This document shows positions 17,805 through 23,754 of a stretch of DNA of 42,362 nucleotides, piece by piece; the first letter of the stretch is position 1, and each line of letters starts with the position of its first letter. The notes under the pieces were generated by a model. The model saw only the letters and a list, made by a program, of their open reading frames with translations, made no database searches and was not told the DNA's origin. The stretch is from the NCBI GenBank assembly GCA_021813385.1, contig JAKAKT010000030.1:1-42362 (forward strand). Direction: 5' to 3'. The stretch is from Microcaldota archaeon (lineage in GTDB: Archaea > Micrarchaeota > Micrarchaeia > Burarchaeales > JAKAKT01). Position numbers and translations under genes: made by a program.

Positions 17805-18039
17805 GCCGGGGTGGCGGAACCTGGTAACGCGTATGCCTGGAATCCGATTCGGGGGAAACCTCGAGTCGCCCCGGTAGCATATGGTCCTCACGGGCCGCAT
17901 GGGTTCAAGCTTTTCTTTCTTTAGAAAAGAAAGAAACCACCGAGGCTTTCAAAAAAGAAAGAAAAACCTTGGAAAAAGAAAGAAACAACGAGGAAGAGAC
18001 CGCTCGTCTCTTTGCTGCCCAAAAATCCCATCCCCGGCG
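17805..18039 (+). tRNA. tRNA-Ser(GGA) with two introns
   Basis: A class II tRNA gene split twice. Acceptor GCCGGGG (17805-17811) pairs with CCCCGGC (18032-18038), discriminator G18039. Anticodon stem TATGC (17832-17836) pairs with GCATA (17877-17881); anticodon GGA is 17839-17841. A 33-nt intron at the canonical 37/38 site (17843-17875) forms a bulge-helix-bulge: CTGG of the exon pairs with intron CCGG, and the intron has a hairpin capped by GAAA. A long variable arm follows. T stem ATGGG (17899-17903) pairs with CCCAT (18027-18031), but the T loop is split by a second intron of 116 nt. Removing both leaves 86 nt. No CCA is encoded. Confidence 0.9.
17907..18022 (+). other. T-loop intron of tRNA-Ser, 116 nt
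   Basis: The intron lies between TTC and AAAT of the T loop (about position 56/57; the exact site can slide by 2 nt because AA occurs on both sides). It begins with a pyrimidine run that folds on an AAAGAAAGAAA run (11 bp). Two more purine-rich repeats follow, then a hairpin AAGAGAC-CGCTC-GTCTCTT, and it ends in GCCCAA. Positions 17955-17984 match the tRNA-Leu intron at 28 of 30 places. Confidence 0.8.
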
Positions 18040-18069
18040 CTTTTAAACTTATGAAGGAGTTGGCTGTGC

Positions 18070-18681
18070 ATGAAACAAAAGAAAACAGACAAAGAAGTTC
18101 CAAAAGACCTCAAGGTCGAAGGAAAGGAGATTAAGGGCATCGTAAGGATTACCGGAAAGGATTTGCGAGGGGACCTCTCCCTTAAGAGGGCTCTCACGAA
18201 AATAAAGGGAGTCGGGATTAGGACGTCTGAAATAATGTCAGAAGTAGTCCTGAAGGAGCTCTCGCTTCCGGATTCAACCGTGGTCGGCTCGCTTTCCGAA
18301 GAGCAGATTGAAAAAGTTGAGCACATGCTCTCGAATCCAGTAAAGTTCGGGGTACCGAGCTACATGACGAACAGGCGGAAGGACAACGAGACAGGGCAGG
18401 ACAGGCACATGACGGGCACAGATCTCACATTTACGGTAAAGCAAGACATTGAGAAAGAGAAGCTATTGAACACGTGGAGGGGCTATAGGCACGCCTACGG
18501 CCAGAAAGTCCGCGGGCAAAGGACGAGGAGCACTGGAAGGACAGGGATGTCCGTAGGAGTCATAAGAAAGTCCATCGCGATGAAGGCAGGAGGGCCTGCT
18601 GCCGCAGCCCCGGGTGCTGCCGCTGCAGCCACCGCCGCTGCCCCGGCAAAGAAAGAGGAGACAAAAACTGATAAAAAGTGA
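18070..18681 (+). CDS. rps13: 30S ribosomal protein S13 (uS13)
   Basis: A small-subunit head protein contacting P-site tRNA and S19. The helix-two-turns-helix region KRALTKIKGVGIRTSEIMSEVVLKE and the basic end YRHAYGQKVRGQRTRSTGRTGMSVGVIRK are conserved. The first 20 residues are a Lys-rich extension. The last 35 are an Ala/Pro-rich tail ending in Lys/Glu, not part of the usual fold. Total 203 residues, against about 150-170 in the family. It is the first gene of the alpha-type cluster. Confidence 0.95.
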   Translation: MKQKKTDKEVPKDLKVEGKEIKGIVRITGKDLRGDLSLKRALTKIKGVGIRTSEIMSEVVLKELSLPDSTVVGSLSEEQIEKVEHMLSNPVKFGVPSYMTNRRKDNETGQDRHMTGTDLTFTVKQDIEKEKLLNTWRGYRHAYGQKVRGQRTRSTGRTGMSVGVIRKSIAMKAGGPAAAAPGAAAAATAAAPAKKEETKTDKK

Positions 18682-18691
18682 GGTTGTTTAG

Positions 18692-19210
18692 ATGGGCGAT
18701 CCAAGAACACTTAAGAAAAAATATGAGTCCCCGAGGAAATTGTGGGACAGCACCAGGATAGCGGAGGAGAGCGGCCTCATAGAGGAATACGGCCTGAAGA
18801 ACACGCGCGAGCTCTGGAAGGCGAAAGCCCAGCTGGGCAAGGTAAGGCGTGAAGCGAGGAAGCTCCTGTCAAAAGGTGAGCAGGGCAAGGCTCTGGCAAA
18901 GCAGCTACTTGATAAAGTCGTGCGCCTAGGCCTAGGCACTGAGACAACGAGCATTGAGGATTTACTGTCGCTTACTCTCAGGGACATTCTCGAGAGAAGG
19001 CTCCAGACGCAGGTCTTCAAGAAGGGATTTGCCAAGTCTCTCCCGCAGAGCAGGCAGCTGATAAAGCACGGCTTCATTTCAATCAGCGGGAAAAAAGTGT
19101 CGGTCCCCGGATACGTCGTTCCGGTCTCGCAAGAGAAGCTGATTGGATACTACAAGGCAATTGACATAAACTCAGGCGGGGGCGAGGGAAAGGCCCCAAA
19201 AGCCTCTTGA
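18692..19210 (+). CDS. rps4: 30S ribosomal protein S4 (uS4)
   Basis: A primary 16S rRNA-binding protein. It has the archaeal N-terminal part ([37 protein letters not shown]) and the S4 RNA-binding domain ([42 protein letters not shown]). 172 residues. GAGGTTGTTTAG stands before the ATG. Confidence 0.96.
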
Positions 19211-19220
19211 CGGTGATTGG

Positions 19221-19781
19221 ATGAGCAAGAATGAGAAGGATGAACCTGTGAACGAGGAACCGAAAGCCGAGAAGGCGCAGGCTCCAGCCCAGGCACCAGA
19301 ACCAAAACCAGCCCCGGTTCAGGCTCCTGCACAACAAGCCCAAGCGCCCGAAGAGCCATCGGACAAGGCAACTATTGTGAAAAAGATTGTTCGTGGCGAA
19401 ACGAGATGGGGAGTTGCCCACATATTCTCCTCGAAAAACAACACCATAATAACGATTACTGATTTGAGCGGGGCTGAGACAATCGCAAAGGCAAGCGGCG
19501 GGATGATTGTGAAAGCCGATAGGGAAGAAGGCTCGCCCTACGCCGCCATGCAGGCTGCTTTCAAGGCAGCCGACCAAGCGAAGCTAAGGGGGATAACGTC
19601 GATTCACATTCGCATAAGGGCCCCAGGGGGCCATGGGGCGAAGACTCCGGGCCCGGGAGCGCAGGCAGTTGTCAGGGCTCTTGCGAGGTCAGGCTTGAGG
19701 ATAGGTAAAATCGAGGACGTGACCCCCATACCGACCGACACCACAAAGAGGCCGGGCGGAAGGAGGGGCCGCAGGGTGTGA
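19221..19781 (+). CDS. rps11: 30S ribosomal protein S11 (uS11)
   Basis: A platform protein near the E site. From about residue 58 it is a standard S11: [51 protein letters not shown], then [33 protein letters not shown] and the conserved end [19 protein letters not shown]. The first 50 residues are a Pro/Ala/Gln-rich extension absent from most members. It lies between S4 and RpoD as usual. Confidence 0.95.
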
Positions 19782-19785
19782 GCCT

Positions 19786-20364
19786 ATGAAAATTGATATA
19801 ACCAAATGCGATGAGTTGGAGATGGACTTCCGGCTCACAGAGGCGACTGTAGCGTTCGCCAATGCGATGCGCAGGATTGCATTGTCCGAAATCCCCACCT
19901 TTGCGATAGAGGATGTGACATTCTACGAGAACACCTCGGCCTTTTTCGACGAATACCTTGCGAACAGGCTCGCGCTTGTGCCATTGACAACGGACCCGAA
20001 ATACACCGAGAAGGACGAAATCTCGTTCATGCTCGAAGGCCAAGGCCCGGGCACAATCTACTCTGAATCGCTCAAGAGCACTGATAAGAAAATCGATGTC
20101 GCGAACGAGAAAATACCGCTGCTCAAGCTTACTGAGGGCCAGACCATACGGCTCGAGGCGAAAGCGAAGCTTGGGGCTGCGAAGAAGCATGCCAAGCATC
20201 AGGCGTGCCTAATAACCTACAAGTACAGCGACGACAAAAAGGACACGTTCGATTTTCACATGGAATCCTTCGGGCAGCTTACTCCGAAGCAGATAATGAA
20301 AAAGACGCTCGAACTTCTCGAACTGAAGTGCGACGAATTGGAGGCTGGATTAAAAGAATCGTGA
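19786..20364 (+). CDS. rpoD: DNA-directed RNA polymerase subunit D (Rpb3/RpoA-like)
   Basis: A platform subunit of archaeal RNA polymerase, pairing with RpoL and joined by RpoN and RpoP. VAFANAMRRIALSEIPTFAIEDVTFYENTSAFFDEYLANRLALVPLTTD is the conserved dimerisation core. Its 192 residues are short compared with the roughly 260 of many archaea, and the Cys-rich Fe-S domain is absent. The 3' end holds TTAAAA (20350-20355), which may act as the promoter for the tRNA-Leu gene 22 nt later. Confidence 0.94.
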   Translation: MKIDITKCDELEMDFRLTEATVAFANAMRRIALSEIPTFAIEDVTFYENTSAFFDEYLANRLALVPLTTDPKYTEKDEISFMLEGQGPGTIYSESLKSTDKKIDVANEKIPLLKLTEGQTIRLEAKAKLGAAKKHAKHQACLITYKYSDDKKDTFDFHMESFGQLTPKQIMKKTLELLELKCDELEAGLKES

Positions 20365-20376
20365 GTTCACGATTTT

Positions 20377-20575
20377 GCGGGGGTGGCAGAGTCAGGTCAA
20401 ATGCGCAGGACTGAGGCAGCCTTTTGTTCGTCGGGCTCACAAAAGCCTGGGGAAAACTGGCTTTGGAACTCCTGTGCCCTAGCGGCTGCGTGGGTTCTGG
20501 CTTTTTCTTTCTTGGGAAGAAAGAAAAACCCAGGAAAAAGAAAGAAGAAGTCGCCCAAAAATCCCATCCCCCGCA
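20377..20575 (+). tRNA. tRNA-Leu(GAG) with two introns
   Basis: Acceptor GCGGGGG (20377-20383) pairs with CCCCCGC (20568-20574), discriminator A20575. Anticodon stem CAGGA (20406-20410) pairs with TCCTG (20470-20474); anticodon GAG is 20413-20415. A 52-nt intron at 37/38 (20417-20468) shows a full bulge-helix-bulge: exon CTGA with intron TTGG (two wobbles), 3-nt bulges GGC and AAC, and a second helix AGCC with GGCT. T stem GTGGG (20490-20494) pairs with CCCAT (20563-20567), with a 61-nt intron in the loop. The spliced tRNA is 86 nt, right for a class II tRNA. A T-run follows the gene. Confidence 0.9.
20498..20558 (+). other. T-loop intron of tRNA-Leu, 61 nt
   Basis: The intron separates TTC from AAAT in the T loop (position 56/57). 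Here the site is nearly fixed, because TGG follows TTC and would not fit a T loop. A pyrimidine run can pair with either of two purine repeats: a 12-bp hairpin closed by GGG, or a longer stem from GGCTT to AAGTC. The 3' boundary GCCCAAAAATCCCAT is the same as in tRNA-Ser. Confidence 0.8.
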
Positions 20576-20623
20576 TTTTTATATGCAAAGTGATGCTTCA
20601 AAAAAATCAAAAAGGATGATGAT

Positions 20624-20980
20624 ATGGACAGACAAACCGAAATACCAGAAGTGAGGGAGCTCATCGTGTTCCTCGAAAAGGCTTCCAAGAAAAACAAAGC
20701 GCCCATCTGGGCTGACATAGCGAGAAGGCTTTCTAGGCCAAGGCGAGGCATGGCGAGTGTTAATGTTGGAAAAATCGAGAAGAATACCAAAGAGGGCGAC
20801 ACAGTTCTCGTCCCAGGCAAGGTGCTCTCGGCAGGGTTGCTCACCCACGGGGTCGATGTCGCAGCGCTGAAATTCTCGATGGATGCAGAGAGGAAAATAA
20901 GCTCGCAAGGGTCGTGCATGGACATCAAGGCCCTCGCTGAGAAGAATCCGAAAGGAACAGGAGTGAAAATTCTCGAGTGA
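20624..20980 (+). CDS. rpl18e: 50S ribosomal protein L18e (eL18)
   Basis: A large-subunit protein of archaea and eukaryotes, related in fold to L15. KKNKAPIWADIARRLSRPRRGMASVNVGKIEKNTKEGDTVLVPGKVLSAGLL is diagnostic. Its 118 residues are normal. It is the first gene of the L18e-L13-S9-RpoN group after tRNA-Leu. Confidence 0.95.
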   Translation: MDRQTEIPEVRELIVFLEKASKKNKAPIWADIARRLSRPRRGMASVNVGKIEKNTKEGDTVLVPGKVLSAGLLTHGVDVAALKFSMDAERKISSQGSCMDIKALAEKNPKGTGVKILE

Positions 20981-21003
20981 TTTCGATTAACAGGAGTGAT
21001 GTT

Positions 21004-21429
21004 ATGAAAATTATTGATGCCAAGGGATGCGTTCTGGGGAGGATAGGCGCACGCGTTGCGAAGATGCTTCTTTCGGGAGAGGAAGTTGCTCTCGTTAACG
21101 CCGGCGAAGCGATAATTTCCGGCAATCCTCAGGCAACGACCGAGAAATATGCCGCAAGAAGAAGCGCAAAGAACAAAGCGAATCCAGAGCACTCTCCGCA
21201 CTGGCCGAGGAGGCCAGATTTGCTCGTCAGGAGGATGCTGAGAGGCATGCTTCCATACAGGACGACGAGGGGCAGGACTGCTTTCAAGAGGCTCAAGGTC
21301 TACTCGAGCCAGCCTGCTGAATTCGGGCGGGCTGAAGTCCTCGAGGGCACAAGCTCTTCGAGACTCCGGACGCGCTTCATCACGATCAATGAACTGTGCA
21401 AGAACCTAGGGTTCAGGGTGGGTAAATGA
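21004..21429 (+). CDS. rpl13: 50S ribosomal protein L13 (uL13)
   Basis: An early-assembly large-subunit protein. MKIIDAKGCVLGRIGARVAKMLLSGEEVALVNAGEAIISGN and the later RRMLRGMLPYRTTRGRTAFKRLKVY are typical. AGGAGTGATGTT before ATG 21004 sets the start (141 residues); GTG 20977 overlaps the end of L18e and would add nine residues. Its stop overlaps the S9 start (ATGA). Confidence 0.95.
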   Translation: MKIIDAKGCVLGRIGARVAKMLLSGEEVALVNAGEAIISGNPQATTEKYAARRSAKNKANPEHSPHWPRRPDLLVRRMLRGMLPYRTTRGRTAFKRLKVYSSQPAEFGRAEVLEGTSSSRLRTRFITINELCKNLGFRVGK

Positions 21430-21932
21430 AGAAGAAAACAGAAAAGACTGAAAAGGCCCCGGAGAAGGACCTCGAAGCCGGTGCTGCTCCAGCCCCGAAA
21501 AAGAAGGGAGATAGGAAGGGCGGAAAAAAGAAAGAAAAGATCTTCCACGCGAGGGGAAAAAGGAAAGAGAGCATTGCGAGGGCGACGATTACTGAAGGCA
21601 AGGGGATTGTCAGGGTAAACAAGATGCTCATAGATTTCGTCGAGCCAGAAAGGCTGCGCGATATCGTGATGGAGCCTATCCAGCTCGCAGGTGATATCGC
21701 TTCGAACATCGACATCTCTGTGAATGTCAAGGGCGGAGGCGTTGTAGGACAGATGCAGGCTGCCCGGGTTTCCATTGCGAAGGCCCTGGTGAAGCACTCT
21801 GGGAGCGAGGAGCTAAAGCAGAGGATGCTCGCACTCGACAGGAATATGCTTGTCGAGGACAAGAGGCGCGTCGAGCCGAAGAAATACAAGGGCCCGAAAG
21901 CGAGAGCAAGATACCAGAAATCATACAGATGA
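21426..21932 (+). CDS. rps9: 30S ribosomal protein S9 (uS9)
   Basis: A small-subunit head protein whose C-terminal tail reaches P-site tRNA. It has the family start of the fold ([24 protein letters not shown]), the core ([26 protein letters not shown]) and the basic end [14 protein letters not shown]. About 38 residues of Lys/Pro/Ala-rich sequence precede the fold, so the protein has 168 residues instead of about 130. Confidence 0.95.
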
Positions 21933-21985
21933 GTTTATGGATGGAGGCTTCGGCTTCCTTTCCTATTACTTTGGGCGGTGATGAC

Positions 21986-22183
21986 ATGATGATACCGGTG
22001 AGGTGCTTCACGTGCGGTTCCGTTGTCGCGGACAAGTACGAGGAATACCGAGATAGGGTGAACGCAGGCGAGAAGCCAGCGACAGTGCTCGACAGCCTTG
22101 GGTTAAAGAGATACTGCTGCAGGAGGATGCTCCTTGCCCACGTCGAGGTAGTAGAAGAAGTTGTGAAGCACGGTAAGTTTTAG
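21986..22183 (+). CDS. rpoN: DNA-directed RNA polymerase subunit N (Rpb10)
   Basis: A small zinc subunit that stabilises the RpoD/RpoL platform. [11 protein letters not shown] starts the family, and the zinc ligands Cys7, Cys10, Cys44 and Cys45 are all present. GGTGATGAC before ATG 21986 decides the start; the longer frame from 21929 is not homologous. 65 residues. In many archaea rpoK and enolase follow before S2; here they are replaced by a thioredoxin-like gene and a tRNA. Confidence 0.95.
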
Positions 22184-22227
22184 GTTGTTCTTTCATTTAT
22201 TTATTTTACACCGTTTACATACGGCTC

Positions 22228-22234
22228 TATAAAT
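22228..22234 (+). promoter_or_regulatory. TATA box of the thioredoxin-like gene
   Basis: TATAAAT lies 53 nt before the start at 22287, predicting a leader of about 30 nt that contains the ribosome binding site GAGGTG at 22276-22281. This gene therefore seems to be transcribed separately from the ribosomal genes. Confidence 0.6.
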
Positions 22235-22286
22235 GTAATGCGTGCAATCTGGTGGGGGAGAGCACATAACAATTTGAGGTGTTTCG

Positions 22287-23318
22287 ATGAGCGATAAAGC
22301 TGAAAATAAAATCGACCAACCAAAGGAGATGAATATCTGGCAGTTGGCAACCGCCGTGCTTGCGGTTCTTCTGGTATTAGCCCTTTTTTGGGGGATAACC
22401 AAACCCGGTCAAGCTCCGGCCAGCAATACGGGAACTCCCGCCTCCCAGAACCAAGGAACAACCATAACCGCCCAACAGGCCGCTGACAAGACGATAAAAT
22501 ACATTAACGACTACTTGATGCAGGGCGCGGGGACCGCGACGCTAACGGGCGTTACCGATAATGCCCAATTCTATGATGTGGCAGTTGGGGTTAACGGGCA
22601 AGCGGTCGATCTCTACGTCACGAAGGACGGAAAGTATTTCGTCCCGAAAAACTATGTTTATGATTTGGACAAGCCAGTGCAAGCACCAGCTCAAACTCAG
22701 GCAAAATCAATCCCAAAGTCGGACAAACCAGAAGTCCAGCTCTACACAATGGCTTACTGCCCATACGGGAATCAGGCCGAGGGTGTGACGCAGCCGGTGG
22801 TGAAGCTGCTCAGCTCAAAGGTCGAAATTGTTCCCCATTTTGTAATCTACCCGAACTACCAGGGCGGGTCGGACGCGTATTGCATGAACAACGGAACGTT
22901 CTGTTCGATGCACGGGATACAGGAACTCCACGAAGACGTCCGCGAGCTCTGCATATACAAGTACCAGAAGGACAAATACTGGGATTATGTCGCCGCCAAC
23001 GATGCGGCCTGCACCGCCCAGAATGCGGATTCCTGCTGGGAAGCGGTCGCGAACTCAACCGGAATAGACACTGCCAAGGTGAAATCGTGCTATGACAGTG
23101 AGGCGACAACACTTCTGCAGAATGAAGTCGCCCTTAATAAGAAATACGGCGTTCAGGGCTCACCCGACTTGGTGGTAAACGGTGTCAGCGCGGGTAATAC
23201 CAGGTCCCCAGAGGGCTACAAGACGGACATCTGCTCCGCGTTCAACTCGCCTCCGAGCGAATGCAGCACGACCCTCAGTAATGCAGGTGGCACGGCAACC
23301 GGCGGATGCGGGACTTAA
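22287..23318 (+). CDS. Membrane-anchored thioredoxin-fold protein (DsbA/GILT-like)
   Basis: Probably a thiol oxidoreductase or a Cys-rich sensor held outside the membrane. One membrane segment (residues about 17-37) follows a short charged N-terminus. Then comes a PepSY-like stretch (about 60-125), a linker, and a thioredoxin fold from about 148. That fold has an active-site-like CPYG (Cys158), where the second cysteine of CXXC is missing. Further cysteines occur in the insert (YCMNNGTFC and later), so a disulfide pair may be made differently. The GSPDLVVNG near 290 fits the cis-Pro loop. It sits inside an otherwise ribosomal cluster. Confidence 0.75.
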   Translation: MSDKAENKIDQPKEMNIWQLATAVLAVLLVLALFWGITKPGQAPASNTGTPASQNQGTTITAQQAADKTIKYINDYLMQGAGTATLTGVTDNAQFYDVAVGVNGQAVDLYVTKDGKYFVPKNYVYDLDKPVQAPAQTQAKSIPKSDKPEVQLYTMAYCPYGNQAEGVTQPVVKLLSSKVEIVPHFVIYPNYQGGSDAYCMNNGTFCSMHGIQELHEDVRELCIYKYQKDKYWDYVAANDAACTAQNADSCWEAVANSTGIDTAKVKSCYDSEATTLLQNEVALNKKYGVQGSPDLVVNGVSAGNTRSPEGYKTDICSAFNSPPSECSTTLSNAGGTATGGCGT

Positions 23319-23475
23319 GTTCCGCCTCTTTTTACTTATTTTTTCTTCTTTCAACAACCTAGACTTATCGAAACCCTTTTAATCCTTACTTGCATCAATA
23401 ACAAGAGTTTCGTCGATACGACTGCCTCGACGGTTAAAAAATGAGGGGCATACGAGTATTGCGAAACGAGAAATT
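23319..23475 (+). other. Spacer with T-runs and tRNA-Pro promoter
   Basis: T-rich runs at 23329-23352 could end transcription of the thioredoxin-like gene. TTAAAAAA at 23434-23441, 35-42 nt before the tRNA, is the likely TATA element. I see no gene here. Confidence 0.5.
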
Positions 23476-23754
23476 GGGGCCGTAGGGTAGCCTGGTCATC
23501 CTTCCGGCTTGGCATTGGTTCGAGTCGAGCCTCTGCCCTGGAATGGGGTGTCGGCGACACGAGTTCAAATACATCCCTTTTCTTTCAGATTCGGGCTGGC
23601 GCCCGAATACAGGAAAAGTTGTGGACAACTTTTCCTTCCCGAAAAGAAAGGGTCTGTATCAACCCCAAAAGAAAGGGCGACGAAAACGCCTAAAGAACAA
23701 ACGAGGGTTGATTCCAAAAAGAAAAATTTGGAAGAACAAATCTCGTCGGCCCCA
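23476..23754 (+). tRNA. tRNA-Pro(GGG) with two introns
   Basis: Acceptor GGGGCCG (23476-23482) pairs with CGGCCCC (23747-23753), discriminator A23754. Anticodon stem CCGGC (23504-23508) pairs with GTCGG (23550-23554). The loop is interrupted by about 34 nt; joining TTGG to GGT gives TTGGGGT with anticodon GGG, and the D arm also looks like Pro. The intron would then lie inside the anticodon. A canonical 37/38 intron would give GGC (Ala), but the acceptor has G3-C70, not the G3-U70 of tRNA-Ala. T stem ACGAG (23559-23563) pairs with CTCGT (23742-23746), with a 171-nt intron in the T loop. The spliced length is 74 nt. Confidence 0.8.
23567..23737 (+). other. T-loop intron of tRNA-Pro, 171 nt
   Basis: The intron interrupts the T loop; AAAT occurs at both ends, so the exact cut can slide by 4 nt. 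It contains two perfect hairpins: ATTCGGGC-TGGC-GCCCGAAT, and an 11-bp stem with arms GGAAAAGTTGT and ACAACTTTTCC. Several AAAAGAAAG-type purine repeats resemble those of the Ser and Leu introns, but overall similarity is weaker. Confidence 0.75.

Follow-up and report, generated by a model that had tools for sequence, protein, structure and literature searches.

What are the insertions that break up the transfer RNA (tRNA) genes of contig JAKAKT010000030.1 from a Microcaldota archaeon (assembly GCA_021813385.1), and why do they sit in the T arm? The window analysed here is the whole of that stretch, 42,362 nucleotides of the forward strand, in which neither ARAGORN nor Rfam at gathering thresholds calls any tRNA. 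The original prediction placed three tRNA genes in it, for Ser, Leu and Pro, each with an intron in the anticodon loop and a further one in the T arm, and read the latter as a lineage-wide expansion. We conclude, at a probability of roughly 0.88, that the three T-arm insertions belong to a single family of structured tRNA introns and that this family has spread among the tRNA genes of the DPANN archaeon, apparently by copying between genes.

The three genes were recovered by a search that tolerates insertions, in which the acceptor and D arm are followed by the T stem and TTC and, further on, by the 3' strands of the T stem and acceptor. With a strict box A filter no match arose in a shuffled window, nor in 28 kb drawn from unrelated archaeal contigs; a loose filter gave 2-4 matches in shuffled windows, with scores of 23.4-24.5. 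The genes for tRNA-Ser (17805-18039, score 27.5) and tRNA-Pro (23476-23754, score 27.2) lie above this shuffled range. That for tRNA-Leu (20377-20575, score 24.2) lies inside it, so its identification leans also on class B homology, described below, and on the call made after intron removal. Once both introns are taken out, ARAGORN calls all three tRNAs. The predicted pair of introns per gene is thus borne out, and the lengths given for the T-arm introns (61-171 nt) and for the spliced tRNAs were exact. Ser-GGA, Leu-GAG and Pro-GGG were each looked for in intact form elsewhere in the genome, and none was found. The claim of one common T-loop site for all three was wrong, since Ser and Leu are best read as 56/57 and Pro as 59/60. 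The genes and their introns are as follows.

17805..18039, + strand: tRNA-Ser(GGA) gene with two introns; 12/12 base pairs in T stem and acceptor; spliced form of 86 nt called tRNA-Ser(gga)
17843..17875, + strand: tRNA-Ser anticodon-loop intron, 33 nt, position 37/38, from the reconstruction
17907..18022, + strand: tRNA-Ser class B T-arm intron, 116 nt, predicted at 56/57; HB AGC/GCU; T-stem GGG and U54 with intron GCCC
20377..20575, + strand: tRNA-Leu(GAG) gene with two introns; 12/12 pairs in T stem and acceptor (one G-U); spliced form of 86 nt called tRNA-Leu(gag)
20417..20468, + strand: tRNA-Leu anticodon-loop intron, 52 nt, from the reconstruction
20498..20558, + strand: tRNA-Leu class B T-arm intron, 61 nt, predicted at 56/57; HB GGC/GUC; T-stem GGG and U54 with intron GCCC
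23476..23754, + strand: tRNA-Pro(GGG) gene with two introns; 12/12 base pairs in T stem and acceptor; spliced form of 74 nt called tRNA-Pro(ggg)
23513..23546, + strand: tRNA-Pro anticodon-loop intron, 34 nt, from the reconstruction, its boundary ambiguous within a G run
23570..23740, + strand: tRNA-Pro class A T-loop intron, 171 nt, predicted at 59/60; removal gives the T loop UUCAAAU

The T-loop introns fall into two related classes, A and B, that share a core. Class A introns sit at 59/60, with the T stem as outer helix; T-loop nucleotides 54-57 (UUCR) pair with YGAA at the intron end, which is typically followed by AAU, and cuts in the bulges give a standard 7-nt loop. Across 65 T-loop introns, mostly of class A and including at least one (L135) that looks spurious, nucleotides 54-57 pair with the 4 nt before the last 3 at a mean of 3.43/4, compared with 1.61±0.12 in shuffled introns and 1.06-2.31 in slid registers. 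The central helix has four pairs in 43/65 and three in 12/65, and intron removal yields TTCRAN[T/C] in nearly all. Class B follows its own pattern in 7/7 T-loop cases, namely T-stem GGG/GAG - UUC - NGC ... GCN - GCCC/GCUC - AAAAAU. The paired changes among these seven genes (GGG-GCCC and, in one gene, GAG-GCUC; AGC-GCU, and GGC with GCC or GUC) point to a bulge-helix-bulge (BHB) with cuts at 56/57 that leave UUCAAAU. A class B site at 59/60 was dropped, as it would give odd T loops in tRNA-Leu and L029, whereas 56/57 gives UUCAAAU throughout. Intron lengths run from about 25 to 244 nt, mostly 57-160 nt. Three marks of archaeal introns of the BHB or bulge-helix-loop (BHL) type are present: removal restores the tRNA, a predicted 4-bp helix is flanked by one or more 3-nt bulges, and the genome encodes a suitable splicing endonuclease (EndA).

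A point absent from the original prediction is that the introns are homologous structured RNAs, in two classes with a common core. All four pairs of class A helix P1 vary on both sides among 12 introns of the window's own genome, and P1 pairing is 3.91 as compared with 2.65±0.20 when partners are swapped. Helix P2 of class A is made by CCUUUUCUUU and AAAGAAAAGG, and a second purine tract, R2, stands directly downstream of CCCC; the class B core consists of the same three tracts, R1 and R2 having CCNNGG between them. Both classes follow one pattern: a strand Y of the form U(n)CU(m) goes with an R1 of A(m)GA(n), as pairing requires, and with an R2 of A(n)GA(m), so that R2 is a parallel match to Y and a mirror of R1. 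In the window the strands can be placed as listed here, Y and R1 of tRNA-Leu and Y and R2 of tRNA-Pro being read from the letters themselves.

20501..20511, + strand: tRNA-Leu intron, Y strand CUUUUUCUUUC of the three-strand core
20519..20528, + strand: tRNA-Leu intron, R1 strand GAAAGAAAAA, pairs with Y
20535..20544, + strand: tRNA-Leu intron, R2 strand AAAAAGAAAG, mirror of R1 and proposed third strand
23570..23573, + strand: tRNA-Pro intron, 5' strand UACA of covarying helix P1, pairs with UGUA at 23655-23658
23578..23585, + strand: tRNA-Pro intron, Y strand UUUUCUUU
23667..23674, + strand: tRNA-Pro intron, R2 strand AAAAGAAA, parallel match to Y

Y and R2 agree in n (2 to 7) in 87/103 elements as against 28.8±4.1 in shuffles (maximum 46 among 20,000), in a comparison uncorrected for kinship; by source, the agreement holds in 27/28 elements of the own genome and in 54/66 elsewhere. 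Among 76 asymmetric elements the mirror is present in 66 and a direct copy in 14. This is the covariation of a third strand with the duplex that marks a triple helix, and it suggests that R2 lies along P2 as a third strand. RNA triple helices are familiar from telomerase pseudoknots and MALAT1-type elements for nuclear expression (ENE), where an A-rich strand runs along a U-A-rich helix. The present core would differ in having two purine strands and one pyrimidine strand, with the third parallel to the pyrimidine strand, and no homology is claimed. Alternatively, R2 could be one side of some other duplex or a protein-binding tract, its match to Y being a by-product. A-rich tracts do bind proteins, and in 28/81 elements a downstream tract of at least seven bases is complementary to R2, which could be duplexed there. 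Nevertheless, two thirds of the elements have no such partner, and the parallel match is kept in 66/76 of the asymmetric ones; we regard this alternative as doubtful, although it survives best of those weighed here.

The P2 loop holds a further feature. A near-identical double hairpin (CAGATTTGGGC...GCCCAAATACAGG...) occurs in it in at least six own-genome introns (L014, L018, L033, L053, L057 and the window at 23586-23641), which looks as though copies of a first element had received a second one. A pseudoknot between the P2 loop and the bases after R2 was left out of the model: at least three G-C-rich pairs are found in 9/75 against 2.9 expected, a weak excess.

How far the family extends was judged in the draft genome (1.78 Mb, 105 contigs, 93% complete); the searches used the Rfam tRNA model together with models of the class A intron and of the tRNA 5' half, as well as patterns, and the tally was made by hand. 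The T loop is interrupted in about 36/43 hand-collated tRNA genes, counting one gene that a contig end truncates and one pieced together from two such ends; 43 is a lower bound because some isoacceptors, e.g. Cys, were not found. Class A introns occur in about 20 of these tRNAs, and a search model named R1 (not the R1 strand), which matches the window's tRNA-Pro intron at 23617-23679 (E 8.9e-5), finds 22 copies in the genome at E<1e-3. The T loop is intact in seven genes (Thr-TGT, Thr-GGT, Gln-TTG, Gln-CTG, Phe, His and Leu-CAA), four of which have introns at other sites: tRNA-His has a class B intron in the anticodon loop, tRNA-Phe an intron in the anticodon arm, and Leu-CAA (L025, class B) and Gln-CTG (L010) have D-loop introns. 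A D-loop intron is also present in Val-CAC (L028). ARAGORN was run on 27 genes of this and related genomes in which the T loop is interrupted and the anticodon arm intact; it found three before intron removal and all 27 afterwards, each with an isotype.

Further sites were noted. An insertion lies near 7/8 in a Met gene (L024). A tRNA-Pro gene with anticodon TGG (L053) has a probable 21-nt acceptor-stem intron at about 4/5, GGGG|ATGATGTTCGTATCACCTTAA|GGA, in addition to anticodon and T-loop introns. In a tRNA-Met gene (L163), a class B intron lies between T stem and T loop (about 53/54) beside a T-loop intron and an anticodon intron, and it seems to contain a nested second class B core.

Beyond this genome, model R1 matches 18/60 relatives (own genome counted) and, at E<=1e-5, 28/295 genomes of the phylum, in about 14 or more families, all within one taxonomic class. 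The inspected matches in relatives are mostly T-loop introns, a frequency biased upward because the loci were chosen by their match to the model; the remainder include anticodon-loop copies (L087, L138) and copies that begin shortly 3' of an intact tRNA (L070, L072, L081, L108, L109). The lineage-wide expansion that had been proposed is thereby supported, and the original observation is right but understates the extent. Taking all genomes together, cores of classes A and B have been placed in four anticodon loops (L005, L050, L087, L138), one D loop (L025) and one T stem (L163), and class B sites comprise the T loop, anticodon loop, D loop and T stem.

The introns could be real and yet owe their similarity to an ancestral intron that predates the divergence of the tRNA genes, rather than to recent copying. 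The T-loop copies in many families of the class, and in one genome of another phylum, would fit such an origin. We think it improbable, since the cores of both classes are also found at the other tRNA sites just named, the distribution across the phylum is patchy (28/295) and the near-identical internal hairpin recurs in several own-genome introns. Outside the phylum, 237 genomes from the phylum to which a Woesearchaeota contig belongs gave just two weak model R1 matches, which may stem from contamination of those genomes; one is a T-loop intron, and the other follows an intact tRNA-Ser on its 3' side and has a mirror with two Cs. A contig scan with uS4 matched just one Ca. Iainarchaeum and one Woesearchaeota contig, at 45-47% identity, and the model had no match in the genomes of these two. 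A tRNA gene outside the sample of the window's phylum (L166, G464) has both a T-loop and a D-loop copy, for which horizontal transfer, contamination or deeper ancestry may account.

Elements with the Y-R1-R2 order also lie a few bases 3' of intact tRNAs, in L072, L108, L109 (G002), L070 (G053), L081 (G019) and L167 (G491). These are trailers and not introns; in L108 the element sits between two tandem tRNA genes.

A candidate enzyme for the excision is encoded. A 388-aa EndA in the genome aligns end to end with ARMAN-2 EndA (4FZ2) at E 2e-137 and conserves residues Y160 and K161 of the ARMAN-2-type-specific loop (ASL), by which homology the genome is predicted to encode a three-unit splicing endonuclease of the ARMAN-2 (epsilon) type. 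The epsilon2 EndA of this type cleaves both BHB and BHL substrates and has broad specificity (PMC12397907, PMC6379350). The EndA type also makes Micrarchaeota the probable lineage of the genome. A second EndA-like open reading frame (ORF), at L118:1135-1770 on the + strand, encodes 212 aa, adjoins tRNA-Thr(GGT) and apparently lacks the catalytic histidine; its product is possibly a structural partner of the epsilon-type EndA. A different route of excision, by self-splicing as group I or other ribozymes instead of by EndA, would fit the conserved, covarying core of the introns and its near-invariant unpaired bases, features that go beyond the needs of BHB introns. It is nonetheless very unlikely: bulge geometry predicts the correct cut in most introns, the shortest are just about 25 nt, a broad-specificity EndA is encoded, and no Rfam family matches the introns at gathering thresholds, with only tRNA and chance-level matches in a permissive search. 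Group I self-splicing in particular was rejected, as the group I core was matched in neither search.

That the loci are decaying or pseudo tRNAs broken by integrated mobile elements, with functional tRNAs elsewhere, is hardly credible, for although integration favours tRNA genes, as a rule at their ends (PMC3293823), and related elements do lie directly 3' of intact tRNAs, the stems are all still paired, P1 and the splice-site pairing are conserved, most isoacceptors are interrupted, the genome yielded no intact second copy of the three window tRNAs, and the inserts have no integrase or ORF (25-244 nt is too short for an integrase gene) and leave the tRNA interrupted where an att-site element would reconstitute it.

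Several observations weigh against the reading of the insertions as one family of spreading, EndA-spliced introns. Only one or two central pairs form in about 10/65 introns, among them the window's own tRNA-Pro intron, ending GAACAAAU, a poorly fitting member of class A. The class B pre-tRNA has no good outer helix. Helix P3 of the core (CCCC with a downstream GGGG) is weakly supported, at 3.75 as compared with 3.25±0.17. The kinship behind the Y-R2 count and the tracts complementary to R2 belong here as well, and no mobility enzyme or event was identified for the introns.

Sequence and covariation support the anatomy, splice geometry and homology of the family, and from them we infer how splicing might proceed by cleavage and ligation. 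In the folded pre-tRNA the splice junction would be closed by the T arm. For class A the outer helix would be the T stem, T-loop 54-57 (UUCR) and the intron-end YGAA would form a 4-bp central helix, and a 3-nt bulge, mostly AAU, would precede the 3' T-stem strand; in class B, T-stem 51-54 would pair with intron GCCC. The broad-specificity epsilon-type EndA would cut in the bulges, and a ligase would join the exons into a standard 7-nt T loop. The intron itself would fold into P1 and the U-rich/A-rich hairpin P2, with the purine strand R2 along P2, probably as a third strand in the inferred triplex geometry; this fold would bring the splice sites together and insulate the intron from exon folding. 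As GUUCRA is near-universal in tRNA T loops, one intron could be spliced from almost any tRNA, so that copies carried to other genes could survive. We give even odds to a wider reading, that this is an undescribed RNA family with a three-strand core, almost wholly inside DPANN pre-tRNAs, a mobile or domesticated RNA released when tRNAs are made, whose forms jointly include introns in the T, anticodon and D loops and the T stem as well as 3' trailers of intact tRNAs.

Neither T-loop introns nor their spread is a new kind of phenomenon. In Thermoproteales, noncanonical introns, including those at 56/57 and 59/60, are known and have been read as the outcome of large-scale transposition (Sugahara 2008, Fujishima 2010, reviewed in PMC4090602, PMC4033280). 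By description, not by sequence, those introns resemble the present ones in their BHB or relaxed BHB motifs, their many positions and the recurrence of like introns from one tRNA to another; such recurrence, across tRNAs and across positions, is the mark of transposed introns and is found here too. The differences are that here the lineage is another one, the T loop is the main site, lengths are mostly 57-160 nt, there is a covarying core with an apparent three-strand motif, and relatives also lie 3' of intact tRNAs. Atabeyarchaeia and Freyarchaeia, which are Asgard archaea, have introns in 92-95% of tRNA genes, often at noncanonical positions, and the available part of that account reports no shared structured intron family or T-loop bias (PMC11291895). 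ARMAN-2 (Ca. Micrarchaeum; 4FZ2) has the same EndA type with broad BHB/BHL specificity, and the portions of its literature available to us describe no T-loop intron families of the present kind (PMC12397907, PMC6379350). Archaeal group I introns are likewise structured, and some are from Micrarchaeota, but those 39 lie in rRNA genes and have a group I core, which has no Rfam match here (PMC6125680). In the open-access literature, which did not include the full texts of Fujishima 2010 and 2011, we found no report of this intron family. Four points appear to be new: T-loop sites dominate in a DPANN lineage, the introns have in common a covarying core whose third strand is a mirror copy, this core is found at several sites, 3' of tRNAs included, and half of the splice signal is, on the explanation offered, supplied by the near-universal T-loop sequence.

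Standard tRNA finders miss such genes, so that for archaea of this sort both the number of tRNAs and the completeness score are likely to be underestimated. An essential set of RNAs is mostly interrupted at a near-universal loop, which means that the T loop itself would give half of the splice signal, a concrete reason for the invasion of many tRNAs by introns. Ordinary BHB introns need little conserved sequence, and the common covarying core sets this family apart from them; it also opens to test how the introns are gained and what the released RNA does.

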